64,000 nucleotides of DNA from Leptolinea tardivitalis (GTDB lineage Bacteria; Chloroflexota; Anaerolineae; Anaerolineales; Anaerolineaceae): NCBI RefSeq assembly GCF_001050275.1, contig NZ_BBYA01000010.1:124001-188000 (forward strand), written 5' to 3'. This document shows, in pieces, positions 6,881 through 57,493 of the stretch. Made by a program: the position numbers and the translations under genes. Within the stretch, counting starts at the first letter, position 1; each line of letters starts with the position of its first letter. The notes beneath the pieces are model-generated. The model had not been told where the DNA came from. It made no database searches and saw only the letters and a list, made by a program, of their open reading frames with translations.

Positions 6881-9800
6881 TTATTTGCAACTGTTACTGT
6901 TGTTGAATGCTTCGTTATAATTTTCCTTCGTAATGATGGGTATCTTAGGTTCTGTAGAGGGAACATAACCTTTTCCGGTATAAACCTTTCCGGGTAGATT
7001 TGGTGTTTCTCCCTTAAGGAAAGATATGGCTGTGGAAACGACATCCCTTACGTACAGGCAATCATCCGGGTATATCGTCATAGATTGTTTTCCGGCTTTG
7101 ATATATTCCAATGAGGCGCTATGTGAGCCCATGCCGGTAATGACGTAACTTGTAATGGTTTTATCTGATGAGAATACATCGGCCAAACTGCGGGACAGGT
7201 TGTCATACGGTGAAAGGATAAATACATCTCCCTTCATTTTTGGATTGGCAGAAGAAAGGTTTGCTTCTGCAAGTTTTGCCGCCTCTTCTCCTATCCAATC
7301 CGAGCCAATCTGATTGATCACTGCCTTAATATTTTCATTGGATAAACTGTTCATGCCAGACACCTCAACCGCCGCTGTCGAATTGGCAACGACAAATGTT
7401 CCATCGGCAATTTTAGGCTGCAAAACGGACCAGGCGCCCTGGAAATACTTTTCTGCTCCTATATCTATCTTGCTGCCGGCATACAGGTAAAGCGGAATCC
7501 CCTTGCGCTGTCCGGCTTTTTGAACCAGATAGTCACCCTGAATTTTCCCAATTTGAACAGGATCAAATCCGATCGCGGCATCAACGAGCGTGTCATCATA
7601 GAGCAAATTATCAAAGGAAATAATCTTGACACCTAATTTTCTGGCCTGACTGACGGCATCTGAAATACTTGTAGATTGGTTGTCTATAGGATCAATGACC
7701 AGAACTTTTATTCCCTTATCCAATAGAGACATGATGGATAAATACTGATATTTTTCATCTTTATTGTCGCCTGATATTTCAATTTTTATCCCATTGGACG
7801 AGAAACTATTCTGAAATAATTCAGTTAATTCCTTATCATAAGTTTCGTTTTCACTCGGAAGGACGATGCCCACCAGAAGTTTATCTTTGTCAAATACCGG
7901 GGCACTGGCCGTTGGCGCAGCAGCAGAAACAGTTGATGCTGTTGCCGGCCCGGCAGCCGTTGGAGTTAGTGCGGCTCCCCCTCCCATAACCTGAATTTTC
8001 AGTGGGATCAACAATACCTGTCCGTTTTTCAGCGGGGCGTTTTCTTTCATCTGGTTGGCACTGACAATATCGGCTTGATTCACATCGAATTTAATAGCCA
8101 GTGCACGAATCGTATCGCCTGGCGATACGGTATATTCGATCATGCGTGTTGTCGTTTCGTCAGGGATCAAGACTTCTGGAATGGATGTCGCCGTAAAGGC
8201 CAAATCTGTCGCGGCGGGAGTGATGGATGCAACCGTTACGGGAGTGCCAGTGATCAATATCGTCGGAGCAGACGTCAATGCCGGTTTTGTCAGAGTGGCA
8301 GCGACTCTCTGCGGCGGGTATACCCCTGTCTGCCACAGAATCAGACCGGCAACAATCACCGCGCCCATCGCTCCAGCCCACCAGTATTTCTTCCAAACCG
8401 GAATGGATTCTTCTTTTATCTCAGCTTTAATGCGCAGGGCGGCCGCCTGTCCATCTTTTCCCAGCTTCTTTAACTCTTTGACGGTCTGCCGGGCAGCCGG
8501 CCAGTTCTGACCGGCACAGGCTTCCATGCCCTGAGTTTCCAGTTGGGTGATTTGTTCTTGCAGCCGGGCTTTCTCTTCGGCATCTTTCTTTGCCTTTTCT
8601 TCTGCCTCTTTTCGGATGCGTTCCTGCTCTGCCAGGCGGGCTTTCTCTTTTTCTTCTTCGCGGGCTTTTGCTGCGGCGTCCCGCCGTGCTTTGTCCTCCG
8701 CCGCCAGCCGGGCTTTTTCTTCGGCCTCTTTGCGGCGTTTTTCTTCCGCCGCCAATCGGGCGCGCTCAAGTTCTTCCTTCCGGGCTTTCTCTGCCGCTTC
8801 CCGACGGGCTTTCTCTTCCGCCGCTTTTTTGGCGTTCTCGACAGCTTCCAATCGCCGTCGTTCTTCTGCCGCCTGACGGGCACGCGCTTCTTCTTCCTGC
8901 TTTGCCTTTTCCAGCGCCTGCTGCCGGGCGCGTTCTTCTTCAACCTTTTTGATGCGTTCTGCTTCCAAACGTTGTTGCTCGGCGATGCGCGCACGTTCCA
9001 GCGCTTCCTTCTGTTCCTTTTCACGGATTTCCCGCGTCATCTGTTCGCCGACCAGAAGGCCTTTACGCAATTCTTCTGCGGTTTCCGCTCCGTCCCACGG
9101 CCGTTCCTTCGGTGATTCCGAAAGCATCCGCAGGATGTAGTTATCAAACCAATCTGGAACACCGGCAACCATATCCTTTATATGTGTGCCCGGCCGGATG
9201 TTCTTGTAGCTCCGACCGGTCAGCATCTCAAAAAGGATCAAACCCAGGGAATAGATGTCTGATGCCGGACGCAGATAAACTCCGGAAATCTCCTGCTCCG
9301 GGCTCATGTACATGGGAGTCCCCGGATGGGCTTTCGGCAGGCTTAATTGCGAGCGCATACTCGCTCCGCCTGGTACCTGTGCCAGACCCAGATCGGCCAC
9401 TTTGGCCAATTCATTCGAATCAAACAGGATGTTGGACGGTTTCAGGTCGCGGTGGACCACGTCCTTCTTGTGCATGACGGATAGCCCCTCCGCCACGTCA
9501 ATACCAAGTTTGACCGTCTCCTTGATTTCAAACCGCTCGCCGTTCTTGCGGTATCTGTCCAGCTTTTGTTTGAGGCTTCCCCCCGATGCATATTCCATGA
9601 TCAGGAACAGAACATTATCCTCTTCCTGAAAGTCATACACCCTGATCATGTTCGGGTGACTGAACCATTCCATCAGTTGAGATTCTTGACGGAACCTGTT
9701 TTTATAATCCTGATAATCTGAACTGCCCACACCAATATCATCGCGCAGCAGCACTTTGATGGCGCGTTTGCCATTCAACTCGATATGGGTGGCCAGAAAA

Positions 9801-9883
9801 ACTTCTCCAAATGCCCCCTGACCGATGCTTTTTTCGATGCGGTAGTTCTTTAATACAATGTCGTTTTCCGCGAACCGCCCCAT
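6881..9883 (-). CDS. Membrane Ser/Thr kinase with LysM and periplasmic-binding-protein sensor domains
   Basis: A 1000-residue receptor-type kinase. The cytoplasmic kinase domain occupies about 12-270 (glycine loop GQGAFGEV 21-28, K43, HRD 144-146, DLG instead of DFG). Then come about 190 residues of Ala/Glu/Arg-rich coiled coil (280-470), a short TPR-like segment, a membrane helix near 499-519 (WWAGAMGAVIVAGLILW), a Thr/Ala/Pro linker, a LysM domain (about 582-630, YTVSPGDTIRALAIKFDVNQ) and a type-1 periplasmic sugar-binding-protein domain (about 665-990, beginning LLVGIVLPSENETYDKELTE). LysM binds peptidoglycan or chitin-like glycans and the PBP fold binds small sugars or autoinducers. An extracellular ligand-to-kinase signalling role is inferred. 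RBS CGGAG precedes the ATG. The long antisense ORFs over the coiled coil are composition artefacts. Confidence 0.9.
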   Translation of the reverse strand: MGRFAENDIVLKNYRIEKSIGQGAFGEVFLATHIELNGKRAIKVLLRDDIGVGSSDYQDYKNRFRQESQLMEWFSHPNMIRVYDFQEEDNVLFLIMEYASGGSLKQKLDRYRKNGERFEIKETVKLGIDVAEGLSVMHKKDVVHRDLKPSNILFDSNELAKVADLGLAQVPGGASMRSQLSLPKAHPGTPMYMSPEQEISGVYLRPASDIYSLGLILFEMLTGRSYKNIRPGTHIKDMVAGVPDWFDNYILRMLSESPKERPWDGAETAEELRKGLLVGEQMTREIREKEQKEALERARIAEQQRLEAERIKKVEEERARQQALEKAKQEEEARARQAAEERRRLEAVENAKKAAEEKARREAAEKARKEELERARLAAEEKRRKEAEEKARLAAEDKARRDAAAKAREEEKEKARLAEQERIRKEAEEKAKKDAEEKARLQEQITQLETQGMEACAGQNWPAARQTVKELKKLGKDGQAAALRIKAEIKEESIPVWKKYWWAGAMGAVIVAGLILWQTGVYPPQRVAATLTKPALTSAPTILITGTPVTVASITPAATDLAFTATSIPEVLIPDETTTRMIEYTVSPGDTIRALAIKFDVNQADIVSANQMKENAPLKNGQVLLIPLKIQVMGGGAALTPTAAGPATASTVSAAAPTASAPVFDKDKLLVGIVLPSENETYDKELTELFQNSFSSNGIKIEISGDNKDEKYQYLSIMSLLDKGIKVLVIDPIDNQSTSISDAVSQARKLGVKIISFDNLLYDDTLVDAAIGFDPVQIGKIQGDYLVQKAGQRKGIPLYLYAGSKIDIGAEKYFQGAWSVLQPKIADGTFVVANSTAAVEVSGMNSLSNENIKAVINQIGSDWIGEEAAKLAEANLSSANPKMKGDVFILSPYDNLSRSLADVFSSDKTITSYVITGMGSHSASLEYIKAGKQSMTIYPDDCLYVRDVVSTAISFLKGETPNLPGKVYTGKGYVPSTEPKIPIITKENYNEAFNNSNSCK

Positions 9884-10182: not shown

Positions 10183-12189
10183 CTATGATTCAATCACCAC
10201 TTCGGTCCGAGTGGAATCATCCATTTCAAGACGAATGGGTTGATCTCCCAATCCCTTAATATTGATCTTCCCACGGATCATCTTTCCCGTCTTGATGGTC
10301 ACCGGGGCAACTTTGGCCATGATTTTGCCGGAGAAAATATTCCGAAATGGATCCGGCCGCTCCGGACGGTCTACATATTCAACACATACGCTGAGTTGAT
10401 TTTCGGATTGAGTGGGAACAATCTCCAGATTCAAATCCCACCAACTGTTAGGAGCAATACTCTGATTCTCATCCGCCCTCACACGGTCGGCATACATCAA
10501 CGAGCCGCCCACATAAACAACAATATTGTGTGCGGCGGCCCGGCCGGTATTCTTGATTCGTAATGTGATCTGGCCGGGTTCATTTTGTACAAGGGTAGGC
10601 GTGGTGGCCAGTTCTGATGTGAGCACCGGTAACATAGAAAGTGCTTCCGCTTTTCTCCGCCTTTCTTCTGCGCCAATGGGATCATTCATCCGTTCCAGTA
10701 CACCGGCAGCCAGCAGGTAATAATACGCCGCCCGTCCCGGGTCCTGTGTCCGCCAGATTAATGCTGCCCGCTCAAATCCTTCCACTCCGCGTTTGCGATC
10801 ACCCACACCAATCCAAAGGCGAGCGCCCCATTCCGGTTCATGGGCTTTCTCCCAGGCCTGGGCTGCTTTTTCAAGATCAGTATCCTGCTCACAGGGATCG
10901 CACCAGTATGTCTGCAAGGCGTACTGGATGGCAGCTTCATGATACTTTTCCTGATTCACTAACATGTTCGCTGCCCACATATGTTGTCCGCCGTGATACG
11001 GCATACTCCAGACGTAACCGCGCAAATCACCTTCTTTTGCATTGCACCGGGTGGCAAAATAGACACGATCTTTCTTTTTGGCCAGATTCCCCGTCAGGGC
11101 CTGATCCTTATTATTTAATCCCGAATATTTCCAAATACACACACCCGTTTGAATATCAAACCCATAGCTATACCCGTGCGAATCCCCACAAACGAGCAGC
11201 GCATCATTTACGATCTGCGGTCGCACCATCGCAGTTCCGTCAAGTTCAACCTCCCAGAGGACCTGGCTGGACATCCGGTCAAGGCAGCGCATTTTATGGT
11301 CTGAAGCACCAAAAAAAAGACGGTTTTTATAATAGGCCAATTTTCCAATTCGGGAAGATAATGACGAGCGTTGATTCAGCTCATATACCCATTGCTGCCT
11401 CCCCGAGATATCCATTGCATACAACTGACCTTTTTCGTTGGCCACATAGATATACTGGTCACCGGTTATCAGCATGTCTGTAAGATAGGCATATTCCGAA
11501 TCGGCGAATACTGTGGATGTATTGTTCCCCTGTATACGCAGCAACTGACCCGGGCGCGTACCGGTCACCAGGTAATAAATGGCATTTTGGAGGGAGAAAG
11601 TCTGCGGACTGTTTAACCGGGCTGTATTGTCCCAGCGGCCAATTTGACCGCTTTTTTGCGTAGCCGGGTTGACACCAACCAGTGTTCCATCGCTGACAGC
11701 AAGACTGACCCATTCAGGATTGTGTTTTACGATTTTTGGTGCAACTGGTCCGGCAAAATCATAAGACCAAACCAGTTTTCCATTCAAATCCAACACCAAA
11801 AGACAGGAGGGATCCGGTGATCGCCGGCCGGTTATTTGCAGGATCCAATCTCCGAAGATATACGGCCTTCCAATGGCCGGCCGGTCCAGCGGCAGAGACC
11901 ATTGTTTTTCCCGGGTTTCCAGACTATACGAAAACAATTCTCCTTCCGGCTGACCAACTACAGCCTCTTCACTGTGACGATTCCAGCCAACCAGCAACGT
12001 CTTCTCACCCAGTACTGTTATGCCAGCCGGTTTTCCGGGAACTGTGAACTGCCAGTCTGGAGTGCAGGGAGGCTTGGCCTGATGAAACGTCTCCCGTTTG
12101 AAGCCACAGATGGGGCATACTGGTGCATTATGTGGAAAATACGAAAGGCATTTCGTGCAAAAAAGCGATGGTATGGAAAAATTGGACAT
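10183..12189 (-). CDS. Zinc-ribbon / PQQ-like beta-propeller / TPR protein
   Basis: A 668-residue protein without signal peptide. Residues about 8-32 form a zinc ribbon with two CxxC pairs (CTKC ... CPIC). About 45-395 are PQQ-type propeller blades (WQFTVPGKPAGI, VWSYDFAGPV, LLWEVELDGTA, CIWKYSG). A helical TPR-like segment follows (about 410-510: YHEAAIQYALQTYW, AAYYYLLAAGVLERM), and the C-terminus (about 520-668) is a CARDB-like beta domain (ITLRIKNTGRAAAHNIVVYV). It probably acts as an intracellular scaffold; nothing suggests enzymatic PQQ chemistry. It lies head to head with the regulator gene at 12470 and near two kinases, so a link to the neighbouring signalling genes is possible but unproven. 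Confidence 0.8.
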   Translation of the reverse strand: MSNFSIPSLFCTKCLSYFPHNAPVCPICGFKRETFHQAKPPCTPDWQFTVPGKPAGITVLGEKTLLVGWNRHSEEAVVGQPEGELFSYSLETREKQWSLPLDRPAIGRPYIFGDWILQITGRRSPDPSCLLVLDLNGKLVWSYDFAGPVAPKIVKHNPEWVSLAVSDGTLVGVNPATQKSGQIGRWDNTARLNSPQTFSLQNAIYYLVTGTRPGQLLRIQGNNTSTVFADSEYAYLTDMLITGDQYIYVANEKGQLYAMDISGRQQWVYELNQRSSLSSRIGKLAYYKNRLFFGASDHKMRCLDRMSSQVLWEVELDGTAMVRPQIVNDALLVCGDSHGYSYGFDIQTGVCIWKYSGLNNKDQALTGNLAKKKDRVYFATRCNAKEGDLRGYVWSMPYHGGQHMWAANMLVNQEKYHEAAIQYALQTYWCDPCEQDTDLEKAAQAWEKAHEPEWGARLWIGVGDRKRGVEGFERAALIWRTQDPGRAAYYYLLAAGVLERMNDPIGAEERRRKAEALSMLPVLTSELATTPTLVQNEPGQITLRIKNTGRAAAHNIVVYVGGSLMYADRVRADENQSIAPNSWWDLNLEIVPTQSENQLSVCVEYVDRPERPDPFRNIFSGKIMAKVAPVTIKTGKMIRGKINIKGLGDQPIRLEMDDSTRTEVVIES

Positions 12190-12469: not shown

Positions 12470-13702
12470 ATGATGTCCGACCCAAAATCTGATCCCGAAT
12501 ACATGAAAATTGGAGAAGCTGCCCGCTTTCTGGGCGTCAATCCGCGGACAGTGTATCGCCGGGTGTGGGCAGGTGAACTTCCCGCCGCCAGAATCGGGGG
12601 ATTGTATTTCATTCGTAAAGCCGACCTCGACGCCATCCTGTCACATAATCGAGCTGAACCGTCTGACCAGGCCGATACGGGATTGATGAAGTGTTCTGTT
12701 TGTTACAGGCTGCTTCCAAATGAGACCCACATCGGTGCAGTTTGTGCCGTAGAAGGATGCGAAGAGATCATCTGCACCCAGTGTGTCAGAAAAGGTGATC
12801 AATATTGCCCGGATCATGCCCCCTCGCAGGAACAACTTTTACTTGACGCCCTCCGGCGCCAGAAAAGTGGTGAAATTCCTGTGGTGGTAAAGAATTCAAT
12901 AGCACGCCTGCGGGAGATTAATTTCTTGAATCGAATTCAGACCCGTTTGACGGCTATGGGTTCCTTCTTGCATCCGGTTTCGGGTGAAGTCATCAATATT
13001 GGCAACTGGGCGGAAATACTGGAATTCGGTGATGACCGTGCTGAAATTATGCATATGCTGGGCAAGGTTGTTCTGGATGCAGACACTCTGGCAAAAAATC
13101 CATTGAATGCCTGGTTCTCAGCCCGTCCACCGTTGCCCAGAGGAAGCAAAGCGCCAGCCATTCATATCCAGGTGCACGTGATGAGCCATCTGGATGAGAT
13201 GATCAGGAATGGATTTGATACCCGGCCTCTTACAGCAGATGACCTCGCCCCCCGGCTTGTTCAACTATCCGAGGAAGCTCGTGAGAGTAAAGAAATGCAA
13301 ATGGTTGTTTTGGCTTCCTCCACCGGCTGGGATGCCACAGCCCGCACGGTGATCAACGGGCAAACCGGAGAAAAGCATGTTTTGCCTTTCTCGCATGGCA
13401 TGGTCATGATTTATCTATACGATCTGGAAAGTGGTGAGCTTTTATATAACAACCTGGATGACCGGGCCCGCCTGTATGCCGAATTGTTTATCCCTTTGCT
13501 CCCTTCGGAAGAAATGGAAGAGGTCAAAACTGCCATTGAAAAAGAGCTGGTAATGTATGACAGCCTTACTCTGGAAAATGCTGTTCAGACTCTCGGGTTT
13601 TCCCGTTCTCTGGTGCAAAAAACATTTGAAAATCTTTCTTCATCAAACCGCTTCACCCTGGTGGATGTACCAGGGTTCGGTTTGACAATTTCTCGTAAAT
13701 AA
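12470..13702 (+). CDS. MerR/excisionase-type HTH regulator with cysteine-rich zinc-binding domain
   Basis: A 410-residue protein and first gene of a seven-gene operon. Residues about 10-60 are a winged-helix DNA-binding domain of the HTH_17/excisionase type (MKIGEAARFLGVNPRTVYRR). Residues about 75-118 form a Cys/His cluster (CSVC ... CAVEGC ... CTQC ... CPDH), a B-box or ring-like zinc site. The remaining ~290 residues form a large unknown domain, ending in another winged-helix-like segment (LTLENAVQTLGFSRSLVQ). ATG at 12470 or 12473; GATGAGG just upstream fits either. It probably binds the palindromes at its own promoter and controls the operon, which is inference from position and domain type. 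The next gene begins 14 bp later. Confidence 0.75.
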   Translation: MMSDPKSDPEYMKIGEAARFLGVNPRTVYRRVWAGELPAARIGGLYFIRKADLDAILSHNRAEPSDQADTGLMKCSVCYRLLPNETHIGAVCAVEGCEEIICTQCVRKGDQYCPDHAPSQEQLLLDALRRQKSGEIPVVVKNSIARLREINFLNRIQTRLTAMGSFLHPVSGEVINIGNWAEILEFGDDRAEIMHMLGKVVLDADTLAKNPLNAWFSARPPLPRGSKAPAIHIQVHVMSHLDEMIRNGFDTRPLTADDLAPRLVQLSEEARESKEMQMVVLASSTGWDATARTVINGQTGEKHVLPFSHGMVMIYLYDLESGELLYNNLDDRARLYAELFIPLLPSEEMEEVKTAIEKELVMYDSLTLENAVQTLGFSRSLVQKTFENLSSSNRFTLVDVPGFGLTISRK

Positions 13703-13716: not shown

Positions 13717-14406
13717 ATGACAGAAAAACGTACACTGGTTGATTTTGGGTTGAATATTTTGCGCGATTTATTGAACAATACCGCAAAATCACAGCCAGCT
13801 TCGGATACCGCAAAAAAGCTGAAATTGGATGAAGTCCCGTTGGAAACCTTGAAAAAGGAAAAAATCTCCCTTGAACAGGAAGAGAAGAAAACACTGTCAC
13901 GTTTACGCGAAATTGAAAATCGCAAACGCCAGCTTTTCAGCGAAGGTGTACAGAACATTTCCAGCGACCGCGAGCAGACAGTTTTGGCCCGCAAAATCAA
14001 AGAACTCGATGTCGAGGCAGCCGGCCTTGATCAGGTGCTTCATGCGCTTTCCAAACAGATGCGTGTTATCGATGGCCTTGTGCAGATTAAAGAACGCACC
14101 ATGATTTTCTCATCGACCAACAACACGATCCTGTCAAAATTGAACATGGACGACATTCTTCATTATGTGAATATGGCCAGCGCCGATGGTGAATTTCAGA
14201 TCAACAAATTCGACGATCTGCTGCGTGCCATGGAAATGAATGCCTCCATTGCGCCTGAATTCCGTGAAGAAGCCGATGTTCTTGAAATAAAAAAGGCCAT
14301 GCAGCGGGCCCGTGAAGCCGGTGAACTCAGTGATGAAAGAATCGATGAGGAATTGAAAAATCTGTACGAAAAGAAAGTTCAGCAAGCCGTTGAAGCTGAG
14401 TTTTAG
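13717..14406 (+). CDS. Helical coiled-coil protein with MIM1-like C-terminus, candidate ESCRT-III-like partner
   Basis: A 229-residue charged, almost wholly helical protein with RBS GGGAGG. A long hairpin-like coiled coil covers about 47-130 (EQEEKKTLSRLREIENRK, then LARKIKELDVEAAGLDQV), followed by shorter helices (about 145-200). The C-terminal helix reads DERIDEELKNL (206-216), matching the hydrophobic spacing of the eukaryotic MIT-interacting motif MIM1 (D/E-x-x-L-x-x-R-L-x-x-L) with Ile for the first Leu and Glu for Arg. The adjacent downstream gene encodes a MIT-AAA ATPase. Size, helix order and tail fit an ESCRT-III/Snf7/PspA-like filament subunit, but I see no decisive sequence identity. 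It could equally be a PspA-unrelated adaptor. Confidence 0.55.
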   Translation: MTEKRTLVDFGLNILRDLLNNTAKSQPASDTAKKLKLDEVPLETLKKEKISLEQEEKKTLSRLREIENRKRQLFSEGVQNISSDREQTVLARKIKELDVEAAGLDQVLHALSKQMRVIDGLVQIKERTMIFSSTNNTILSKLNMDDILHYVNMASADGEFQINKFDDLLRAMEMNASIAPEFREEADVLEIKKAMQRAREAGELSDERIDEELKNLYEKKVQQAVEAEF

Positions 14407-14439: not shown

Positions 14440-15636
14440 ATGTCTGTAAATCTTGGTGACATGGCTTTTTCTGAATACCGACGGGTGCTCAAACGCGCTG
14501 AAGACGCCCGATTGAAGGGTGCTTTCTCTGATGCGGCGGCGGCTTACCGTCAATGTGCCGAGTTATACAGGCAATATGCCGCATCGTCCACTGATCCATC
14601 CATCCGAAAACAGCGATTGAAGCAGTCTGAGATCTTCCTGCAAAAATCCCGGCAATACGGTTCATCTTCCGTATCGCACCAGTCTGTTCATCACCAGGAA
14701 GCCCGGAAGGAAGCCGCCGGGCCGGCTGATCGGGATGATTATGAAGCCGATGTATTGAATCTGAGACAGCATACCAATATCAAATGGAAGGATATTGGCG
14801 GGTTGGAAGAGACCAAGAATTCCATCAAAGCAGCCTATGGAATGGCTCTGGCCCAAAAACCGAAAGGAGTGCAGATTAACAGCTGGCGGAACATTCTTCT
14901 TTTCGGGCCTCCGGGAACCGGGAAAACACTTCTGGCCGCCGCCACAGCCGGAAGTCTGGAAGCGGATTTCTTTAACGTCAAAGTGAGCAATCTGGTATCC
15001 AAGTATTTCGGTGAAACCAGCAAATTAATCTCCGCTTTGTATTCCGTCGCCCACCAGCGAAGCCCATCGGTCATTTACATGGATGAATTCGAATCCCTTA
15101 CGCCTCCCCGTGATTCAGGCGACAGCGGTGCGGAACGGAGAATTGTCAGCACATTCCTTTCCGAGCTGGACGGACTGGCCACCAAGGAAGACGAAAGTTT
15201 TATTCTGACCATGGGAGCCACGAATTTCCCCTGGCTGCTGGATTCGGCCATGTTGAGCCGCTTCCAGCGACGAATTTACGTCCCCCTGCCTGATGAAGCT
15301 GCCCGGAAATCCATTCTCGAAATCCACCTGACCCGCCGCGGCCATAAGACAACGCAGGATATCAATGAGTGGGTAAAAGCCACCCGTGGATTCGCCGGAC
15401 GTGAAATTGAACAGCTTTGTCAGACGGCTATCGCCAGCATGACTCAGCGGGCCAACCCCGGTCTTCTTGATCTGGTAGATCAGGGACGAAAAGCCCTGAG
15501 CAAATATGAAATCAAAATTGAGCCGCTCACAGAAAATGATATGAAATCAGCACTCGATCAAATACATCCGATCACCACGGCAGACATGCTAAGGCAGTAT
15601 GATGATTGGAACCATCAATCTGAACACCAGATGTAA
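14440..15636 (+). CDS. MIT-domain AAA+ ATPase of the Vps4/katanin (meiotic) type
   Basis: A 398-residue protein. Residues about 8-75 look like a MIT three-helix bundle (YRRVLKRAEDARLKGAFSDA, AYRQCAELYRQY, then a third helix before a short linker). The AAA module begins NIKWKDIGGLEETKNSIK. Walker A is GPPGTGKT (156-163), Walker B VIYMDE (211-216) and the arginine-finger/SRH motif RFQRRIYVPLPD starts at R274, a signature of Vps4, katanin, spastin and fidgetin. The C-terminus ALDQIHPITTADMLRQYDDW is also Vps4/katanin-like. Such enzymes are hexameric unfoldases that pull on filament subunits bound by MIT. Start 14440 is preferred over 14422 because AGAGA precedes it, but both are possible. It sits 33 bp after the coiled-coil gene. 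Confidence 0.88.
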   Translation: MSVNLGDMAFSEYRRVLKRAEDARLKGAFSDAAAAYRQCAELYRQYAASSTDPSIRKQRLKQSEIFLQKSRQYGSSSVSHQSVHHQEARKEAAGPADRDDYEADVLNLRQHTNIKWKDIGGLEETKNSIKAAYGMALAQKPKGVQINSWRNILLFGPPGTGKTLLAAATAGSLEADFFNVKVSNLVSKYFGETSKLISALYSVAHQRSPSVIYMDEFESLTPPRDSGDSGAERRIVSTFLSELDGLATKEDESFILTMGATNFPWLLDSAMLSRFQRRIYVPLPDEAARKSILEIHLTRRGHKTTQDINEWVKATRGFAGREIEQLCQTAIASMTQRANPGLLDLVDQGRKALSKYEIKIEPLTENDMKSALDQIHPITTADMLRQYDDWNHQSEHQM

Positions 15637-15661
15637 AAATCTCTCAATCAGGGAAAACCTC

Positions 15662-17002
15662 ATGTCCACTTTTGATGATAAAAAAGCATCTTTTGAACAA
15701 CGGCTTCAAAAATCCCGTGCCAATCATGAAGCCAACCTTGATAAACAACTGGCGGATATGCGGGTACGCCTGTTGAAAGATGCTCCCCCGGCTCTTCCAG
15801 ATGCAGCCATCCGCCAGATCACCCGTTTGGACCATGAGATCAAACAGCAAAGAATCTCCGGGATGCCAAGGGAAATGCGTGTTCAGATGGGTGGAAGTAC
15901 ACCATTACGTCAGGTAGATTCATTCTTCATCAAGGAATTTCAAACCAATAAGTACCTGTACTCCAATCTAATGAGTTATCCTACTGTTTTCTGCGAGACT
16001 CTTGAGGAATTCTTTAATACCTTTATTGACGACCTTGACGTTTCACCATCGGCAAAAAGACAGGAATTGAACCGAATGGTGGAGGAAGCACAACAGACTG
16101 CCGCCGATTCCCACGGGGGCGGTATATTCGGGGTCAACCTGCCAGGCCAGGGGTGTTACTTAAATGGATGGTTGTTTGCCTATGAAAGCGGGAAAAAACC
16201 ATCTGAAATTCTTCAATCAGAAAGTCATCTTCCATCCATATTAATGACCGCCGCCCATGAAAAACTCGGACATGGATTTCTCGCAGAATGCAGTGTCCTC
16301 GGGAAAACAAAATCGCGGTTGGGTTTGGATATGGTGGAAGTAGCCCGTCGCTTCAGCCTCCGTTCAGCAGAAGATCCTCTTACAAGCCTGAGGCAGCAGC
16401 AAAATGGTCTGATCCATACCACATCACAGCTTGTGGAAGAAGGATGGGCTACCTGGGTTGAAAGTTATATTGGCCAGTGTCTCTGGGAGAGACAACATCC
16501 CACCCACACCGTAGAACCCCTGATTGAAGCCTGCCAGAACCTTCCGCAGAATATAGAAAACCGCCAGCAGGTAAAAGAAGCTCTATTGACCGCAATGGCC
16601 TACCTTCTTGGCGATCAACAGGCCAACCTTCAAGCACTTCACTGGGCCATCAATACCATTGAAATACTGGGATCTGATTTTGATGATTATTTCTTCTCGG
16701 CTGCCAGCCAGCCCTTACGGTACTGCATCGGTGAATTGCTTCTGATGCGTATTGAAACACAGATGGGACCGTTGTGTGCTCCTTACGCCGCCCTGACGGC
16801 CGCCAATGTTGCCATTGAGCCCGACAAAATCAGTCTCAGCGATTTACAAACATTAATGGATCAGGATCCACGTCTTCACCCCGATACACGCCTGGCGGCC
16901 ATTGCGCAGTTATCCATCCGCAACAAAAATGACGTGGCCGAGATGGGCAGGCAGATCGAACAGCAATTAAGCTTCTCCGTGCCTCCAAGACTTCTGAATT
17001 AA
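15662..17002 (+). CDS. Zincin-like protein of unknown family within the Vps4-like operon
   Basis: A 446-residue protein with a helical N-terminus (about 1-70). HEKLGH (199-204) followed about 55 residues later by LVEEGWATWVES (E259-A263 core) recalls DUF885/M-type gluzincins, which have HExxPGHH and EGWA-Y-E. Here the first motif is one residue shorter, so whether zinc is bound is uncertain. A glycine-rich stretch SHGGGIFGVNLPGQGCY (about 150) is another candidate active-site feature. There is no signal peptide or membrane segment, so it is cytoplasmic. It is 25 bp from the ATPase gene and is probably co-translated. A regulatory peptidase or an inactive derivative acting on an operon partner is conceivable. 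RBS AGGGAAAACC precedes 15662. Confidence 0.6.
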   Translation: MSTFDDKKASFEQRLQKSRANHEANLDKQLADMRVRLLKDAPPALPDAAIRQITRLDHEIKQQRISGMPREMRVQMGGSTPLRQVDSFFIKEFQTNKYLYSNLMSYPTVFCETLEEFFNTFIDDLDVSPSAKRQELNRMVEEAQQTAADSHGGGIFGVNLPGQGCYLNGWLFAYESGKKPSEILQSESHLPSILMTAAHEKLGHGFLAECSVLGKTKSRLGLDMVEVARRFSLRSAEDPLTSLRQQQNGLIHTTSQLVEEGWATWVESYIGQCLWERQHPTHTVEPLIEACQNLPQNIENRQQVKEALLTAMAYLLGDQQANLQALHWAINTIEILGSDFDDYFFSAASQPLRYCIGELLLMRIETQMGPLCAPYAALTAANVAIEPDKISLSDLQTLMDQDPRLHPDTRLAAIAQLSIRNKNDVAEMGRQIEQQLSFSVPPRLLN

Positions 17003-17030: not shown

Positions 17031-18611
17031 ATGGAAAGTAAACCTTCTTCCGCATCCACACCATCTGCCCGGGTATTGCCGCTTGACAAATTACCCGGTT
17101 GGATAAGCAAATCCCTCGATGTTCCGCCTCTCCGGACAGGCATTGTGGTTACGTCCAGTGGAAAATCCACTACCTACCCTTCCGGGAAACATATCATTCT
17201 TTCACCAATTGATCGATTGAGAGGTAAGGGTGTTGGATTGCAAATTGGTTATGTTTCCACAGAACCAGTAACAGCCCGATTAACCGCATCATATCTTTTA
17301 TCGGGTGACGAAATTCTTGTGGATGCCGCCATCACGTATGATGCCCGGATTACCGATCTCCAGCGATATTTCTGCGAGCTGGTCATTCCTATGGGTGAAA
17401 TTCCTGCAGGACAGATAAATTTCAGCAATGAAGAAGCTGCCTCATCCATCCGGCAATTGGTCCGCCGGTATACCGCCGATGATTTGATCCACGGGCTGCC
17501 TACTCACCTTCTGGCGGCCGAAATCCAACGAGCGTTGTCTGCCACCCTTCAAAATCTGGGAATGGAGGTCGATAGAATCTTATTGATAACCTTCTGGCGC
17601 TCGGATGATAAAGTGAAAGCGACAGAAAAAATCATGGAACTGGAACAAGACCTCCAGAACATTGAACTTCAGAAGAAAATGGCGGAGGTTGAATCTCAAA
17701 TCCAACTGGATGATTTTATTCATCAATTGGATCCCGAATTCAGTCAATCAGCCGGAGTCCGGCCGGTGATGCATGAACGAACCGTTTCCGGTAATGACAC
17801 GGCCAATTCTGCGGAAAATCTAAAAAAATGGCTTGTTGATCAGACAACTCATTCAAGCGGCTCCCATTGGCGGTTATCTAATTTATTCTCCAACGATAAT
17901 AAAAATTCCCTCCTTCCATCACGCCGTCCTCCACAAAACTGGTGGGTAGGTAGAACAATCTGGATCTTGTTCCTGGTTTGTTCTGGCGCCGGAATCACGC
18001 TCTTGACGACAAACCGGTTCTCTGGTGAACCGCGCAAGGATCTGCTTTATGGTTTCCTGACAGGCTTATGGTTATTCCTTCTGCCCTTTATTCTGGGTGA
18101 AATTAAAAAACTGGTCGAAAAATGGGAAAAAGTAAACGAAGCCGTCTGGAATCTGCCTTCTGCTACGCATTTACAGGAACTGATTGGAGATGATAAAAAT
18201 CGGGCAGACCGGCTTGTGCGGAAACAATGCCTTTCTGAAATGGAACGAAGTCGTTCCATTTTGGAAGATATGGTTTCACGTCTATATAATGCCGGATCTA
18301 CTGATTCGGCGATAAGATTGCGCGAGTTGCGGCACAAGTTTGAAAGTACCCAGGAGCGACTCAAGCAACCTGATTTTGGCAATCCGGCATATTTGAGCGA
18401 TAATCATCTAAGCAGTGCCGCCTGGGGAAGAACGCTCGATTATGATGAAAATCTCCTGTCTTTCGCCGGTGCCATAACGGAACAGGTTTTCACCGCCCAG
18501 CAAAATTTGTCGTCATCCAAGGAAATTCCCACTCTCAATTCAATAGAACAACACCTGGACGAATTCTTGTACCGCTTCAGCGGGCGGTCGCAGGTTTTGA
18601 AAAATCTATAA
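17031..18611 (+). CDS. SPFH/Band-7-like protein with two C-terminal-half membrane helices
   Basis: A 526-residue protein. Residues about 30-215 resemble an SPFH/Band-7 core: LRTGIVVTSSGKSTTYPSGK, a middle strand block with ARLTASYLLSGDEILVDAAI, then LAAEIQRALSATLQNLGMEV and a charged helix (about 200-225). Two membrane helices lie near 308-327 (WILFLVCSGAGITLL) and 335-356 (FLTGLWLFLLPFILGEI). A cytoplasmic helical C-terminus follows, to 526. SPFH proteins scaffold membrane microdomains. Its place between the zincin and the zinc-ribbon SPFH protein suggests both SPFH proteins work together. Assignment to SPFH is from pattern, not strong identity. Confidence 0.6.
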   Translation: MESKPSSASTPSARVLPLDKLPGWISKSLDVPPLRTGIVVTSSGKSTTYPSGKHIILSPIDRLRGKGVGLQIGYVSTEPVTARLTASYLLSGDEILVDAAITYDARITDLQRYFCELVIPMGEIPAGQINFSNEEAASSIRQLVRRYTADDLIHGLPTHLLAAEIQRALSATLQNLGMEVDRILLITFWRSDDKVKATEKIMELEQDLQNIELQKKMAEVESQIQLDDFIHQLDPEFSQSAGVRPVMHERTVSGNDTANSAENLKKWLVDQTTHSSGSHWRLSNLFSNDNKNSLLPSRRPPQNWWVGRTIWILFLVCSGAGITLLTTNRFSGEPRKDLLYGFLTGLWLFLLPFILGEIKKLVEKWEKVNEAVWNLPSATHLQELIGDDKNRADRLVRKQCLSEMERSRSILEDMVSRLYNAGSTDSAIRLRELRHKFESTQERLKQPDFGNPAYLSDNHLSSAAWGRTLDYDENLLSFAGAITEQVFTAQQNLSSSKEIPTLNSIEQHLDEFLYRFSGRSQVLKNL

Positions 18612-18638: not shown

Positions 18639-20906
18639 ATGGTATTCAATCTCTTCGGTAAAAAATGCCCTAACTGCCAGTCTCCGGTTTCATCTGATGC
18701 CAAATTCTGCTCCAAATGCGGCACCCCGCTCGCAGGTGGAGTAATCAAATGTGGTGTATGTGGAACCGAGAACAGTGGTGATGCAAAATTCTGCCGTTCC
18801 TGCGGCCGAGATTTGTCCAAAAATGCTACTCCTGAAATCCAGCGTCATCACTGGGCTCGAAATGACCAGGATTTCGCCATCCGTTTGGAAGCCGATGACC
18901 TTCCGGGGATGCTTCGTAAGGGTATCACCATTGAACCCGGATTGAATGCCCTGCTCATCGAACGTGGCGTAACCCGCGGAACCATTCCAGCCGGTACGTA
19001 TTTATTGGAACGCCCGGAGCAAAAATTGTGGGATTGGCTGACCACCGGTATTCCGGAACGGGCTACCTTATTAATGGTGGAAGTAACACCCACAGAATTA
19101 ATGTTCAACCTGGGCGGACGGTTTACCAATGACCCCTTGCCCATCGGCGCCAACATCCGCATGCAGGTAGAAGTGGCTGAACCGGGAAAATTCCTGACCA
19201 ATCTCCTTAAGGGACGGGAGAAGCTGTCCAAAGAAGACCTGCGCGAATTCCTGTACCCTGAAGTGGTGCAGATTGCAGATCAATGGCTGCGTGAGCATTC
19301 GTTGAAAGAGCTGGCAGAAAATCCGGCCACCAAAGCTCAATTGGACATTGCCCTGGAAGAAAACCTGAAGAAAACCTTCCAGCAGGTAGGACTTGTTTTC
19401 AAAAACATCCGCACCGTGGAGTTGAACCTCGAACCCTATGACAAGATAAAAGGGACACGCAGCCAGATGGCGCTGCTTAATATGTCAGCCAGCGTGGAAC
19501 TCGAATACCAGAAGCTTCAGGCAACCACAGAAGAAGACAAACACCGCCTGGAAGAAGAGACCAGGCTGCGCCGGGCACAGGAAGAAGCCGAATTACGCCG
19601 CCGGTGGGGTGACATTCAGAAACTCAACATCCTTGAAAACCTGGCCGAAGAAACTCGCAAGGTGGAAGAGGAAGAGTCGAAGGTAGACCTTTACAGCCGC
19701 ATGCGTCAGGCGGTGATGAGCGACAAGATGAATGAGGTCAAATCAGAAGCTGATTTTGACAAATTCATGGATGATGTTGATTACCAGAAATTACTGCGTG
19801 AAAAAGAACGCACCGACCTGCTGCAAACCTGGAAAGAAAGCAAGGAAGATCACGACCGTGCCCGCCTGCATCTGATGGCACGTGCGGATGTGGAACACGA
19901 GTATGAATTGATCGCCCTGCAAACCCGGTTGAAATTTGGACAGGATTTCCAGGCTGTTGAAAATCAAATCAATATTGCCCGAAAACACGCTGATTTTGAT
20001 TTTGAGAACCGCCTGAAAGAAAGTGATCTGGCGTTGGAAATGAACCGGAGAAACCGCCAGGATAAACGGGAAGACCGTGAATTGGAAGCGGAAGACCGTA
20101 TTCGTCAGATCGACATCGAAGAACGTGAAGACAAGAGCGATTTTGAGTCCCTTAAGAGATTGACAGATCTCGAACTTTCCAAAAACGAAGAAACACGACG
20201 GATTGCCCGCGAAGATGAGTTAGCCCGAGCAGAGGCAGAACAAAAGAAATGGCGAGAACAATGGGATGCCCAGCAACAGAAGGAAAAGAGCATCCGTGAA
20301 GATGCCATCCTCCTGAACGAATCACTGGCAAAACTTGGCCCCGATGCACTGATTGCCGCGTCCGGTTTGGAACAGGCAAAACTTATCAAGGAGCTGAAGG
20401 AAACAGAAATCCTGAAAGGCATGAGTGAAGAACAGATCTTGGCCATGGCCGCCAAAGATTCTCCGGAACTGGCGAAAGCGTTTGAAGAGAAATTCAAAGC
20501 GGCGTCTTCCGGCCAGTCCAGTCAACAGATGGCTGCTTTATACGAACGGTTATTGCATGAAAAAGATGCACTACTCCACCAATCCATCGAACAGTCTGAC
20601 AAGCACATTCAGGATATGAAAGAGACGCTGGATAAAGCCGCCGGATTGTCATCAGAAACATCAAGACATGCCATGGATAGCATGGCGGATATGGCCAGAT
20701 CACTCGGGTCAGGCTCGCATCAACAACCGCCAATCATCATTAACACGCCATCCGGAGCTGTCACACCGGCGGTGCCTTCCGGCTTTGGAAGTCAGGCACC
20801 ATCCAATACGCCAGCCAACAAGATGTGCGTGCAGTGCGGCCAGTTCGTTCCGGCTGATTCAAAACATTGTGAACATTGCGGTCACAAATTTGAGGGCGTA
20901 GATTAG
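18639..20906 (+). CDS. Zinc-ribbon / SPFH / long coiled-coil / zinc-ribbon protein
   Basis: A 755-residue protein with RBS AGGAGG. Two zinc ribbons at the N-terminus (CPNC-CSKC about 6-27, CGVC-CRSC about 38-59) precede an SPFH-like domain (about 75-275: LRKGITIEPGLNALLIERGV, IPAGTYLLERPEQ, MLFNLGGRFTNDPLPIGAN-like block). A very charged coiled coil runs from about 280 to 610. A Ser/Gly/Pro linker leads to a terminal zinc ribbon (CVQC-CEHC, 731-748). The order ZnR-SPFH is that of Bacillus YdjI, which recruits the ESCRT-III-family protein PspA to membranes (established for ydjFGHI). Here the same role toward the coiled-coil/Vps4-like pair is inferred. There is no membrane helix. Confidence 0.8.
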   Translation: MVFNLFGKKCPNCQSPVSSDAKFCSKCGTPLAGGVIKCGVCGTENSGDAKFCRSCGRDLSKNATPEIQRHHWARNDQDFAIRLEADDLPGMLRKGITIEPGLNALLIERGVTRGTIPAGTYLLERPEQKLWDWLTTGIPERATLLMVEVTPTELMFNLGGRFTNDPLPIGANIRMQVEVAEPGKFLTNLLKGREKLSKEDLREFLYPEVVQIADQWLREHSLKELAENPATKAQLDIALEENLKKTFQQVGLVFKNIRTVELNLEPYDKIKGTRSQMALLNMSASVELEYQKLQATTEEDKHRLEEETRLRRAQEEAELRRRWGDIQKLNILENLAEETRKVEEEESKVDLYSRMRQAVMSDKMNEVKSEADFDKFMDDVDYQKLLREKERTDLLQTWKESKEDHDRARLHLMARADVEHEYELIALQTRLKFGQDFQAVENQINIARKHADFDFENRLKESDLALEMNRRNRQDKREDRELEAEDRIRQIDIEEREDKSDFESLKRLTDLELSKNEETRRIAREDELARAEAEQKKWREQWDAQQQKEKSIREDAILLNESLAKLGPDALIAASGLEQAKLIKELKETEILKGMSEEQILAMAAKDSPELAKAFEEKFKAASSGQSSQQMAALYERLLHEKDALLHQSIEQSDKHIQDMKETLDKAAGLSSETSRHAMDSMADMARSLGSGSHQQPPIIINTPSGAVTPAVPSGFGSQAPSNTPANKMCVQCGQFVPADSKHCEHCGHKFEGVD

Positions 20907-20915: not shown

Positions 20916-21278
20916 ATGAAGAAAAAAATCATCGTCCTCATGGTATGCCTTCTGCTGTCTCTGGCAGCGACCGGTCAGGTATTTGCCAGCGCATTACCGG
21001 ATGACACTGCTCCGACATCCACTGTCGGGGCAGTGGAAGCGACAACGGCACCTACCGCAGTGACCGCCGGACAAGCTGCTTCAAACCAGCAATTTAATGC
21101 CTCCTGGGTACTGGTTATCCTTGGTCTGGCCTTGTTGTTTGTGCTCTATTTCAATCGTTGGAATGCCCGACCCAAACCAACAGCTGAGCAGTGCGCCCAG
21201 TGCGGGTTTGACCTGACCGGCAAGTCCGGTCCCTGCCCGCAATGTGGTGGTACCAGGCGTTTGCCAAAACTTCACTGA
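20916..21278 (+). CDS. Small membrane protein with C-terminal zinc ribbon
   Basis: A 120-residue protein and last gene of the operon, 9 bp after the previous stop. The N-terminal hydrophobic segment (about 5-25, IVLMVCLLLSLAATGQVFA) looks like a signal peptide. A Thr/Ala-rich spacer, a second membrane helix (about 62-80, WVLVILGLALLFVLYF) and a cytoplasmic zinc ribbon CAQC-CPQC (about 93-110) follow. This puts the ribbon at the inner face of the membrane, where it could dock the ribbons of the upstream SPFH protein. Comparable ZnR-TM proteins (YdjG type) occur beside PspA in Bacillus. Confidence 0.7.
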   Translation: MKKKIIVLMVCLLLSLAATGQVFASALPDDTAPTSTVGAVEATTAPTAVTAGQAASNQQFNASWVLVILGLALLFVLYFNRWNARPKPTAEQCAQCGFDLTGKSGPCPQCGGTRRLPKLH

Positions 21279-21430: not shown

Positions 21431-23732
21431 ATGGGGCATTATTCAGAAAACGATATCGTAGCAAAAAACTATCGGATTGATCGAAGTGTAGGTCGGGGAG
21501 CCTTTGGCGAGGTATACCTGGCCACCCATACCGGTTTGAACGGCAAACGAGCCATCAAGGTACTCTTCCGTGATTCTGTCGGGTTGGGATCTTCTGACTA
21601 TGAAGATTATAAGAACCGCTTCCGGCAGGAATCTCAACTGATGGAATGGTTTAATCATCCCAACATCATACGGATTTATGATTTCCAGGAAGAAAATGAC
21701 ACCCTGTTTCTCATCATGGAGTATGCGGCCGGGGGAAAATCTCAGACAGCGATTGGAAAAGGCCAGAAAAACCGGAGAGTCAATTGCCTTCCAGGAAGTT
21801 GTGAAGACCGGTATTGATATAGCAGAGGGTCTGGCAGTTCTTCACCGTAAAGATGTCGTCCATAGAGACTTGAAACCTTCGAATATCCTGTTTGATTCAG
21901 ACGGCCTGGCTAAGGTTGCCGATCTTGGACTGGCACAAATACCCGGCGGGGCGAGCATGCGGTCACAGCTTAGTGTTCTCAAACCACATCCCGGAACTCC
22001 TGCCTATATGAGCCCCGAACAGGAAATTTCGGGGATGTATCTACGCCCTGCATCAGACGTCTATTCGCTTGGACTGATCCTGTTTGAAATGCTGACCGGA
22101 CGCGGCTATAAAAATATCCGCCCGGGAACACATGTATCTGACCTTTCCCCTGCGGTTCCAGAATGGTTTGATGACCTGTTATTACGAATGCTCGCCGATT
22201 CTGCCAAAGAACGTCCCTGGGATGGGGCGGAAACCGTGCAGGAACTTCGACGCGGACTTACTGAAGGCGCCTCGTTGAAGAGGGAAACTGTCTCGACAAT
22301 TACTAACCAGCCGGTTGAACCTGTGATCCTTCATGAAAAGCCTTCAGCGGAAAATATCAAACCACCAGAACCGGTTGTTACTGAGCCAAAAGAAGTTTTG
22401 AAGCAGGATATTGCCACTCCCTCTCCATCGAATCTGGATAGAGGCCAAGCAACCTCAAATGAAGAAATAACCCGGACAATTCTTGACTATGAAGAAAAGG
22501 GGCTGGTCGCCTGCCAGTTGCAGGATTGGACATCTGCCAGATTGTATGTGAAGTATCTGAGGGAATCAGGCCCTGTAGGTGAACAGGCTGCTGATCAGCT
22601 GGAAGCCAGGATAAATCCACAGGGAATATCTTTTATAAAACGGTACTGGTGGGCTATTGTCGGGATCGTTTGCCTTGCATTCATCTATTTCATCATTACA
22701 AATGGCAATTCCATTTCTGCCAGTCCAATGAATTTCTCCGGAGACAAGACTCTGGCATCGAATATGACGGAAGTGTCTGGTGATGTTTCCAATCAGAGTG
22801 GCTCTGGTGAAAACAAGCAGCAGGGAGTGATTGATTTCTATAAAGAAGCCATTGGCGATTACACCTCCCTGACGTTCAGCCGGGATGGAAAATACTTGTA
22901 TTCCGCATCATCCAATAACCAGGTGACGAAATGGAACGCTCAAAACTTCCAACTCGTGAGCAACCTGACAAAGGCTAAATCCAGCATTTATGATCTGGAC
23001 GTCTCTCCGGATGGTCTATATCTGAGTATCGGCACACAGAGTGATGAAATGTATGCCGTAGATAGTCAGGCTGGAACAACAAATTTCACATTGTTGTTTT
23101 ATAAACCGGTCAAACTGGTGAAATATTCCCCAGACAATAAATACATTGCCGGTGTGGATGATACGGGGCATTTCTGCATTATTGATAATCCGAGAGGGGC
23201 AACCCCCATTATTAAGTACGATAACAATACATCGGTCACCAGTGTGGATATTGCCAGTCCGGAACCAGGCATTCATAATGTCGCCTTCGCTACAGATGAT
23301 GGCAGGGTAAAGATTTTCACCATTGAAGAAAGCACCCCCGGTCAAATGGGTAGTACGGCCAATATTAAATGGGAAACTCAACAAGTAGCTACGGGCATTG
23401 GCGTTGCTTTTCGGGCTGACCCCACTTTTATTATCGGAGCCTGGTCAGATGGGACTGTGTCTGTTTTCGACCTGATGGGCTCCAAAAAACCAATCACCAG
23501 CTTTAATGCCGGTTCTCCAATTTCGCATTTTGCCTATAATGCCAAAAAGGATCTGATTGCCACTGGTGGAATCGATGGAAAGATTCGTGTCTTCAAAACG
23601 AATGGACAAATTGTACGGTTATTCCAGAACAGCAATCCAGTTTTATCGATAGCCTTTTCACCAGATGGGAACAAGCTGGTAGAAAGTAATAAAGCGTCTG
23701 GCTTATATACCTGGGATTTGAGTGGATTATAA
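21431..23732 (+). pseudogene. Membrane Ser/Thr kinase with WD40-like sensor, broken by a one-base frameshift
   Basis: Two frames together encode one protein of about 767 residues closely related to the 1000-residue kinase at 6881-9883. Frame one (from 21431) gives the glycine loop GRGAFGEVYLA and stops making sense after MEYAAGG. The next frame continues NLRQRLEKARK, VVHRDLKPSNILFDS and DLGLA (DLG for DFG) to 23732. The join is at GGGGGAAAA (21736-21744); deleting one base restores the frame. After the kinase come a TPR-like segment, a membrane helix (about 405-425, YWWAIVGIVCLAFIYFII) and WD40/quinoprotein-like blades to the end. Either a sequencing indel in a homopolymer or a real inactivation; a +1 programmed shift is less likely because no classical slippery stop context is seen. 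Confidence 0.85.
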
Positions 23733-56309: not shown

Positions 56310-56381
56310 TGCGGGGTAGAGCAGAGGCAGCTCGTCGGGCTCATAACCCGGAGGTCAGTGGTTCGAATCCACTCCCCGCTA
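56310..56381 (+). tRNA. Initiator tRNA-Met (CAU)
   Basis: A complete 72-nt cloverleaf with anticodon loop CTCATAA. Position 1 (T) does not pair with position 72 (T), and the anticodon stem has three consecutive G-C pairs (CGGG/CCCG); both are marks of initiator tRNA. D stem GAGC/GCTC, T stem AGTGG/CCACT with TTCGAAT loop, discriminator A. CCA is not encoded. A tyrosine recombinase gene follows 90 bp later. Confidence 0.95.
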
Positions 56382-56390
56382 CTAGGAAGG

Positions 56391-56419
56391 AACCAGAGTA
56401 CTATGTACTCTGGTTTTTC
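56391..56419 (+). terminator. Terminator of the tRNA gene
   Basis: ACCAGAGTAC (56392-56401) and GTACTCTGGT (56405-56414) with a 3-base loop followed by T-run. Confidence 0.85.
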
Positions 56420-56431
56420 GTTAACCCGGCG

Positions 56432-57485: not shown

Positions 57486-57493
57486 CCGGCTGT

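Follow-up and report, generated by a model that had tools for sequence, protein, structure and literature searches.

Endosomal sorting complex required for transport (ESCRT) systems of the archaeal 'Main' clade are described from Thermococcales, Halobacteriales and other groups in the survey by Makarova et al. (2024, PMC10936438); there, Vps4 and ESCRT-III are accompanied by a protein whose C-terminal winged helix (wH) resembles the ESCRT-II protein Vps22 and, in many genomes, by kinases and phosphatases. The same text mentions SPFH proteins with a zinc ribbon and a coiled coil in Meth_adaptin loci. For bacteria, Ravi et al. (2024, PMC11237479) describe VPS4-like ATPases that were transferred to bacteria, with snf7 replaced by a TPR + 6TM gene, as well as PspA and Snf7 members occurring with other AAA proteins, and PMC8281802 already presents bacterial PspA/Vipp1 as relatives of ESCRT-III. 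Here we analyse a gene for a Vps4-type AAA ATPase of 398 aa ('type 1'; positions 14440-15636, plus strand) and its neighbours in a 64,000-nucleotide stretch of DNA from Leptolinea tardivitalis (contig NZ_BBYA01000010.1, positions 124,001 to 188,000), referred to below as the window. To our knowledge, bacteria are generally held to lack a complete ESCRT set that includes the motor protein, and we know of no PspA/Vipp1 locus with this Vps4 partner.

In our view the locus probably represents a membrane-remodelling module of the archaeal ESCRT type in a bacterial version. This reading is carried by what the ATPase shows in its sequence, its predicted fold and its position in the trees, by the conserved linkage of its coiled-coil partner gene, CC229, and by the homology of CC229 and of a helix-turn-helix (HTH) protein to genes of a Thermococcus locus that has the same kind of ATPase. 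As in the description of the Main clade, the window ATPase falls into one clade with Thermococcus and haloarchaeal proteins, the coiled-coil partner lies upstream, the HTH/wH-like protein is homologous to the Thermococcus one (253 columns), and Ser/Thr kinases are found nearby. The window differs from that description in its bacterial host, in the N-terminus of the HTH protein (HTH_17 plus a cysteine-rich segment), in its additional SPFH and metallopeptidase-like genes and in the lack of a Snf7-like gene in its genome. With CdvC/Vps4 of TACK archaea and eukaryotes the ATPase shares the MIT-like domain, the single AAA module, a predicted C-terminal helix and the fold, whereas it belongs to a separate clade and the hosts have FtsZ. 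Like the ATPases of Ravi et al. (PMC11237479), it is a Vps4-like AAA protein apparently transferred to bacteria; unlike the loci described there, the window has a coiled-coil ESCRT-III-like gene beside the ATPase, and five relatives from the class retain a Snf7-like gene.

The initial annotation of this DNA had proposed an AAA ATPase with Vps4/katanin features in a bacterial operon. The frame 14440-15636 is open across its whole span and contains all the motifs listed there, namely GPPGTGKT (Walker A, residues 156-163; 14905-14928, plus strand), IYMDE (within VIYMDEF, residue 211) and the RFQRRIYVPLPD block (residue 274), together with SKYFGE (residue 187) and GATN (residue 259). An alternative in-frame ATG lies at 14422, 18 bases 5' of the start; the start is nevertheless likely at 14440, because most homologues begin there with M(S/P)(V/I)(N/D)(L/I). 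Pfam detects a single AAA domain (117.9 bits), and among the NCBIfam models CdvC is the best (180.2 bits, residues 24-398; model cut-off 650), followed by CDC48 (175). Judged from these scores, the match to AAA and CdvC-type models is far beyond chance level. In one relative (L026), CDC48 ranks first (191.9 versus 169.5 for CdvC), and NCBIfam scores alone are therefore insufficient to fix the family. Similarly, Cdc48/p97 is top-ranked in sequence searches of the PDB with full ATPases, so that Vps4 is not singled out by sequence score alone.

The AlphaFold2 model of the ATPase (12-row alignment; mean predicted local distance difference test score, pLDDT, 83) comprises a three-helix bundle (residues 5-74), followed by the AAA module and, at the C-terminus, one helix. 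All ten top Foldseek matches in the PDB were katanin, Vps4 (including that of Metallosphaera), FIGNL1 and spastin, in agreement with the Vps4/katanin-like character initially proposed. In the VIA comparison the same families held ranks 1-22 of 50, the best being katanin (Z 30.3, root-mean-square deviation 2.4, 286 aligned), with Metallosphaera Vps4 at Z 29.7. Afg2/p97 appeared from rank 23 (Z 27.6), and hence the fold margin favouring the Vps4/katanin families is modest.

The N-terminal bundle (residues 5-74; 14452-14661, plus strand) is formed by the helices H5-25, H29-48 and H53-74, with block pLDDT of 85-95 at residues 11-70. Profiles of the first 88 residues (L040, cut at its start, was omitted) linked the bacterial type-1 proteins to those of Thermococcus and haloarchaea (98.3, E 2e-14) and the latter to CdvC/Vps4 (93.9, E 1.5e-7); the direct comparison of bacterial type 1 with CdvC/Vps4 gave 64.9 (E 6.1e-5). 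A second bacterial family, 'type 2', matched both type 1 (97.4, E 1.4e-11) and CdvC/Vps4 (84.6, E 6.9e-6), and all five controls scored <=0.9. Pfam MIT was detected in two type-2 relatives (E 5.3e-4 and 7.1e-3), both under the curated cut-off, and the match of a type-2 MIT region to a chitin synthase chain in the PDB (E 0.01) is too weak for use. The predicted bundle and the chain of profiles to the CdvC/Vps4 N-termini support the MIT-like domain that the initial annotation had claimed. As to its further claim of a Vps4/katanin-type C-terminal helix, such a helix (residues 381-397; 15580-15630, plus strand) is predicted and aligns with katanin/Vps4 up to residue 398 in the AlphaFold2 and VIA data, but Pfam Vps4_C gives only E 0.074. 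The same Pfam model reaches 19.9 bits (cut-off 21.3) in L026 and is absent at E<=0.1 from the ATPase of Ca. Chlorohelix; in archaeal members of the clade it exceeds the cut-off (Thermococcus, 35.8 bits; L170, 23.1 bits).

Trees of the AAA core (61 and 54 sequences; IQ-TREE, LG+C20) included one Lokiarchaeal Vps4 and were built without eukaryotic Vps4, katanin and spastin and without IetA; the archaeal reference ATPases came from a profile search with a 6-row alignment, the best 80 loci of which were mostly two-domain Cdc48. The long-branched Lokiarchaeal AAA sequence L173 and six of the 14 Cdc48 pairs are present in the 61-core tree and omitted from the 54-core one. Both trees contain the same named groups, and some deeper branches differ in position. 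The branch separating the ATPase from FtsH (the genome's own), PAN and Cdc48 D1/D2 is supported at 99/94 (61-core) and 100/97 (54-core). An FtsH/PAN origin of the bacterial ATPases was also considered, and a clade with FtsH and PAN was rejected (approximately unbiased test, AU, p 6e-6). The bacterial type-1 proteins form a clade (99/94, seven rows, 61-core; 100/96, eight rows including the Chlorohelix plasmid, 54-core), which is united with the archaeal type-1 proteins at 100/97 and 100/99, respectively. The eight archaeal members come from Thermococcus, three haloarchaea, Methanophagales, Cuniculiplasma with a near relative, and another Thermoplasmatota; inside this archaeal diversity, the bacterial clade sits beside the Cuniculiplasma pair with modest support (92/73 and 89/76). 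The branch uniting type 1 with CdvC has only 89/79 in the 54-core tree.

Type 2 (eight rows) is a clade of its own (100/99 and 100/98), near Thermoplasmata Vps4 (95/91 in the 61-core tree; 83/63 in the 54-core tree, or 99/96 including a Streptomyces row). On the Streptomyces plasmid concerned (L200:3638-6006), the gene for a Vps4-like ATPase precedes a TPR gene, resembling the type described by Ravi et al.; in the tree a long branch joins this ATPase to the type-2 group. The initial annotation had assigned the window protein to the meiotic clade of AAA ATPases, naming a place in an unrelated bacterial clade with no MIT fold as the result that would speak against it. We found a strong branch away from FtsH, PAN and Cdc48 and a predicted MIT-like domain; the assignment thus withstood this check and can be refined to a Vps4 of archaeal type that groups with proteins of euryarchaea.

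The operon weighs more than the ATPase gene itself. Both genes upstream of it have relatives, judged by profile comparison, at the Thermococcus locus. The ATPase gene does lie in a bacterial operon, amid CC229, HTH, metallopeptidase-like and SPFH genes; these neighbours, which the initial annotation did not mention, resemble ESCRT-like partners. A plasmid search with the window ATPase yielded 190 records, four of which cover at least 80% of the query: Ca. Chlorohelix allophototropha (43.8% identity), Thermococcus peptonophilus (37.4%), Halomicrobium urmianum and Halarchaeum. In the Chlorohelix plasmid, which is a complete record, the ATPase is found together with a homologue of CC229 (154 bits), a further coiled-coil gene (22 bits with the wider coiled-coil, CC, model) and a gene for a Ser/Thr kinase. 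At the Thermococcus plasmid locus, the type-1 ATPase is accompanied by a 172-aa protein, a 607-aa protein related to the HTH protein, a pair of CC229 homologues scoring 62 and 68 bits, and a kinase, as well as by a PP2C phosphatase and a Snf7-like gene (103-106 bits). By its taxon and gene content this locus appears to be of the Main-clade ESCRT kind, and from the described layout the 607-aa protein would be the wH protein arCOG09748.

The HTH protein of the window (12470-13702, plus strand) comprises HTH_17, a conserved Cys/His cluster, a central domain and a C-terminal segment that reads as winged-helix-like. Its residues 140-408 match residues 354-607 of the Thermococcus protein (hhalign 98.6, E 5.3e-16, 253 columns; controls <=0.2); the 172-aa Thermococcus protein, compared with the HTH protein only, gave no hhalign match. 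The bacterial and archaeal CC families match at 98.7 (hhalign, E 2.5e-16; coiled-coil controls <=1, two of them single sequences), and the bacterial and archaeal Snf7-like families at 98.8 (E 1e-16). One member of the archaeal Snf7-like set passes Snf7 (33.0 bits), and L175 and L170 have no Snf7 match. Haloarchaeal genes 5' of the ATPase match CC unevenly (95.7, 47.5 and 3.2). In Halomicrobium urmianum (L197:19-3584), an M48 metalloprotease and a PQQ propeller are encoded some kb 5' of the type-1 ATPase, a faint echo of the bacterial neighbourhood. In the Thermoplasmatota stretch L171 (4326-5504), a tubulin/FtsZ-family gene (PF00091, 51.8 bits) is situated 3' of the CC and type-1 ATPase genes.

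CC229 (13717-14406, plus strand) is a coiled-coil hairpin protein and a candidate ESCRT-III-like partner. Its model contains a more confident hairpin (H42-80 and H84-141), a low-confidence N-terminal helix and shorter helices after the hairpin. The C-terminal segment 'DVLEIKKAMQRAREAG', with an acidic/MxRA motif conserved by eye, has similar counterparts in other bacterial rows and, more loosely, in three archaeal rows. Foldseek places Vipp1 at ranks 1, 2, 5 and 6 but at E 0.21 or worse, which is not significant, and in the VIA comparison of the hairpin 17 of the 50 rows were CHMP/Snf7/PspA/Vipp1 (Z 9.2-10.9), with unrelated coiled coils equally high. The predicted helical-hairpin arrangement is similar to that of PspA/Vipp1, whereas profile similarity is lacking (CC versus PspA, 0.3); the same method also fails for Snf7-like versus PspA, and the miss therefore carries little weight. 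The CC profile matched two Lokiarchaeal coiled-coil genes that precede the long-branched AAA gene (52.8, E 1.4e-4), and the search of the PDB with the CC229 profile gave a single chance match (E 0.44). Since the Snf7/PspA profile test failed, we term CC229 ESCRT-III-like and assign it no family membership. Gene position and probable fold are the grounds for this name, and the protein would probably play the ESCRT-III part in the module.

The ATPase protein was found at E<=1e-40 in three of 61 genomes, its own included, and the core of the module is common to three genera of the family. The gene order in L012 and L013 is HTH protein, CC229, ATPase, other genes, SPFH and zinc-ribbon SPFH; the peptidase-like gene is present in L013 and absent from L012. 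Among 396 genomes of the class (four candidates scored per genome in the rows shown), seven have the ATPase at E<=1e-55, six of them type 1 and one (G218) type 2 only. The CC229 profile, built from the window genome, G017, G345, G347 and G430 plus G023 from outside the sample, identified six of the 396, identical to the six with the type-1 ATPase. Most of these were sources of the profile, and the fair reading is therefore that no additional genome has CC229 and lacks the ATPase. CC229 is located directly 5' of the ATPase in five of the six; in the sixth, G304, the full CC229 is on a separate contig and a CC-nuclease fusion lies inside the ATPase cluster. This unlinked copy is an independent find. 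L026 (11119-12042) encodes a fusion of a CC229-like hairpin with a staphylococcal-nuclease domain (65.5 bits), in a cluster with two Vps4-type ATPases. A genome-contig search with the single ATPase protein found no relative, and when the phylum was searched for type-2 ATPases (E<=1e-90), the outcome of 0 of 400 is uninformative, since the rows shown contain scores for just four candidates in each genome.

Several relatives have an extra coiled-coil gene beside the ATPase, which matches Snf7 at E 0.0011, 0.0026 and 0.0083, all under the curated cut-off. In a Snf7 search of eight whole genomes the two best matches, below the cut-off, were these genes in G430 and G304, and the fifth was in G218; nine of 14 controls also gave weak matches, all of them under the cut-off. 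A Snf7-like profile of six proteins (four bacterial, two archaeal) detected the gene in five of the 396 class genomes, and the distance to a Vps4-type gene is <=140 bp in every case; G345 and G347, among these five, were not sources of the profile. In a Chloroflexi bacterium (L174; 1931-3673, 545-1246), a Snf7-like gene is situated directly 5' of a type-2 Vps4, with an FHA protein and a kinase further on, a layout reminiscent of haloarchaeal FHA-type ESCRT loci. PspA is over the cut-off in G304, G347 and G430. FtsZ is present in all eight genomes searched, and the module is therefore probably dispensable for division. Three members of the family (G000, G017, G023) carry a pair of FtsZ-family genes, every one scoring over the cut-off, and the other five genomes searched have one each.

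Downstream of the ATPase, the frame 15599-17002 (plus strand; the start probably lies at 15662, judging from relatives) encodes a metallopeptidase-like protein with HEKLGHGF and [EQ]EGWxxW[VI]E in 3/3 aligned sequences. Neither Pfam nor NCBIfam assigns it to a family at E<=1, and by its motifs it may represent a new metallopeptidase family. It is followed by an SPFH/Band-7 protein (17031-18611, plus strand; Pfam Band_7, 35.5 bits) in which hydrophobic membrane segments can be read, and by a protein with zinc ribbons over the Pfam cut-off, an SPFH-like part (Band_7_1, weak, E 0.016) and a coiled coil (18639-20906, plus strand). A small protein with one apparent membrane segment and zinc-ribbon-like cysteines (20916-21278, plus strand) begins after a 9-bp gap and is a probable member of the operon. 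On the minus strand, the divergent neighbour (10183-12189) is a PQQ/beta-propeller protein by Pfam, with blastp relatives in L012, L025 and L026. Beyond it, the frame 6881-9883 (minus strand) encodes a Ser/Thr kinase that also carries LysM and a sugar-binding-like periplasmic domain, an unusual single-protein sensor architecture; kinases recur in related loci. A further Ser/Thr kinase, with WD40 repeats, is spread over two overlapping frames (21431-21817 and 21678-23732; together 21431-23732), by a frameshift or a sequencing error. Two convergent phage-type integrases (56358-58639) may mark a downstream mobile element.

Several results weigh against regarding the locus as an ESCRT-type module. 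The CC229 model is of low confidence (pLDDT 60, predicted template modelling score 0.40, two-row alignment), its hairpin also resembles unrelated coiled coils in VIA (CT398, Z 11.8; Rad50; prefoldin), and the protein has no Snf7 or PspA_IM30 match in Pfam or NCBIfam at E<=1. The profile link between CC and Snf7-like proteins is weak: 45.6 (E 2.1e-4, 146 columns, co-linear), 50.6 without one masked row (controls <=1, two being single sequences), <12 with smaller sets and 6.0 for CCA-SNA alone. The gene 5' of the ATPase in Halomicrobium urmianum has no CC match (3.2). Profile searches found no Snf7-like gene in the window genome or in G017, and no PspA in the window genome, G017 or G023. As for the ATPase, Pfam MIT is absent at E<=1, the type-1 N-termini of Thermoplasmatota (three rows) gave no match (1.8; 0.5 in a smaller comparison), and only three of the 61 genomes carry the gene. 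For the HTH protein, it is the central domain that carries the match (98.4); on their own, the C-terminal 75 residues score 2.2. Finally, constraining the archaeal type-1 rows as one clade was not rejected (AU p 0.066), which leaves the direction of transfer unproven.

The same genes could alternatively serve membrane protein quality control, the ATPase unfolding substrates delivered by SPFH proteins and feeding them to the metallopeptidase-like protein, with no remodelling polymer involved. The two SPFH genes and the conserved HEKLGHGF protein directly 3' of the ATPase fit such a scheme, as do the SPFH gene adjoining a Vps4-type gene in L028, the M48 metalloprotease gene about 5.6 kb 5' of the Halomicrobium urmianum ATPase and the lack of a recognised ESCRT-III family for CC229. 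We nevertheless think it unlikely: in the trees the ATPase is neither FtsH- nor PAN-like, it is the coiled-coil protein that has been retained as a partner in bacteria and archaea alike, the HE[KR]LGH motif occurs in only two of 17 related stretches of differing length (L013, L025), and the annotation of the Thermococcus and Chlorohelix stretches includes no peptidase. An anti-phage role, with the ATPase an IetA-like protein accompanied by partner genes, was set aside as the first choice, the PADLOC match being confined to the AAA region, and appears very unlikely. The IetA models do match the AAA domain (132 bits), mad1 matches the HTH (32 bits), and integrase genes are found about 41 kb downstream; the IetA match, however, covers residues 91-338 only and is below that of CdvC (180 bits), the N-terminal domain is MIT-like, and no PADLOC model matches CC229, the peptidase-like protein or the SPFH proteins at E<=0.001. 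The protease partner of IetA is a subtilase; no full-length IetA with a protease partner was found here, the neighbouring protease-like gene having no Pfam family.

Two further alternatives concern the origin of the module. That it was ancestral to bacteria and archaea, with no transfer from archaea, is compatible with the unrejected archaeal clade (AU p 0.066); the very patchy distribution in bacteria (3/61 genomes; 6/396 class genomes) and the modestly supported position of the bacterial clade beside the Cuniculiplasma pair within archaeal diversity argue against it, and we regard this history as improbable. Archaeal contamination or an assembly error is scarcely credible. Most of the other host genomes are drafts in tens to hundreds of contigs, but the window lies in a contig of 723,768 bases, and three genera of the family share this core. 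Contamination was rejected on account of the complete RefSeq plasmid of Ca. Chlorohelix, which carries the core as well: its place inside the bacterial type-1 clade excludes metagenome contamination.

If the locus is a bacterial module of the archaeal ESCRT type, as we favour, its parts could work as follows; the polymerisation, the docking of MIT, the membrane target and the transfer from archaea are what we infer. By analogy with ESCRT-III, CC229 would assemble into a polymer at the inner surface of the cell membrane, and the HTH/winged-helix-like protein may nucleate or recruit it in an ESCRT-II-like manner, or may regulate the operon through its HTH. The MIT domain of the ATPase would dock on a short C-terminal helix of CC229, for which the segment given above is the candidate site, and the ATPase hexamer, by the same analogy, would extract CC229 subunits, remodelling and recycling the polymer. 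The SPFH proteins may mark or cage the membrane site and guide CC229 assembly, and the flanking Ser/Thr kinases may regulate the module. Repair, remodelling or vesicle formation is a more likely role than an essential one in division, which is disfavoured by the presence of FtsZ in every genome searched. Transfer from archaea to bacteria would fit the patchy bacterial distribution and the tree.

In the literature, covered at the level of titles and abstract openings (bioRxiv lay outside, and subscription papers were scarce), no bacterial locus combining such an ATPase with coiled-coil and archaeal-type HTH/wH-like partners was described. A bacterial operon whose ATPase, coiled-coil and HTH/wH-like genes are homologous to an archaeal locus changes the prevailing picture. 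It offers a minimal ESCRT-like set that can be studied free of eukaryotic complexity, including in the enriched Chloroflexota member Ca. Chlorohelix. Some Chloroflexota-related bacteria may even run a working ESCRT of archaeal architecture, with an ESCRT-II-like wH protein, an ESCRT-III-like polymer, Vps4, SPFH platforms and kinases, for remodelling, repair or vesicle formation beside FtsZ-based division, with Vps4 gained on two or more occasions (types 1 and 2); this wider view we hold tentatively, as a serious possibility that stops just short of being probable.

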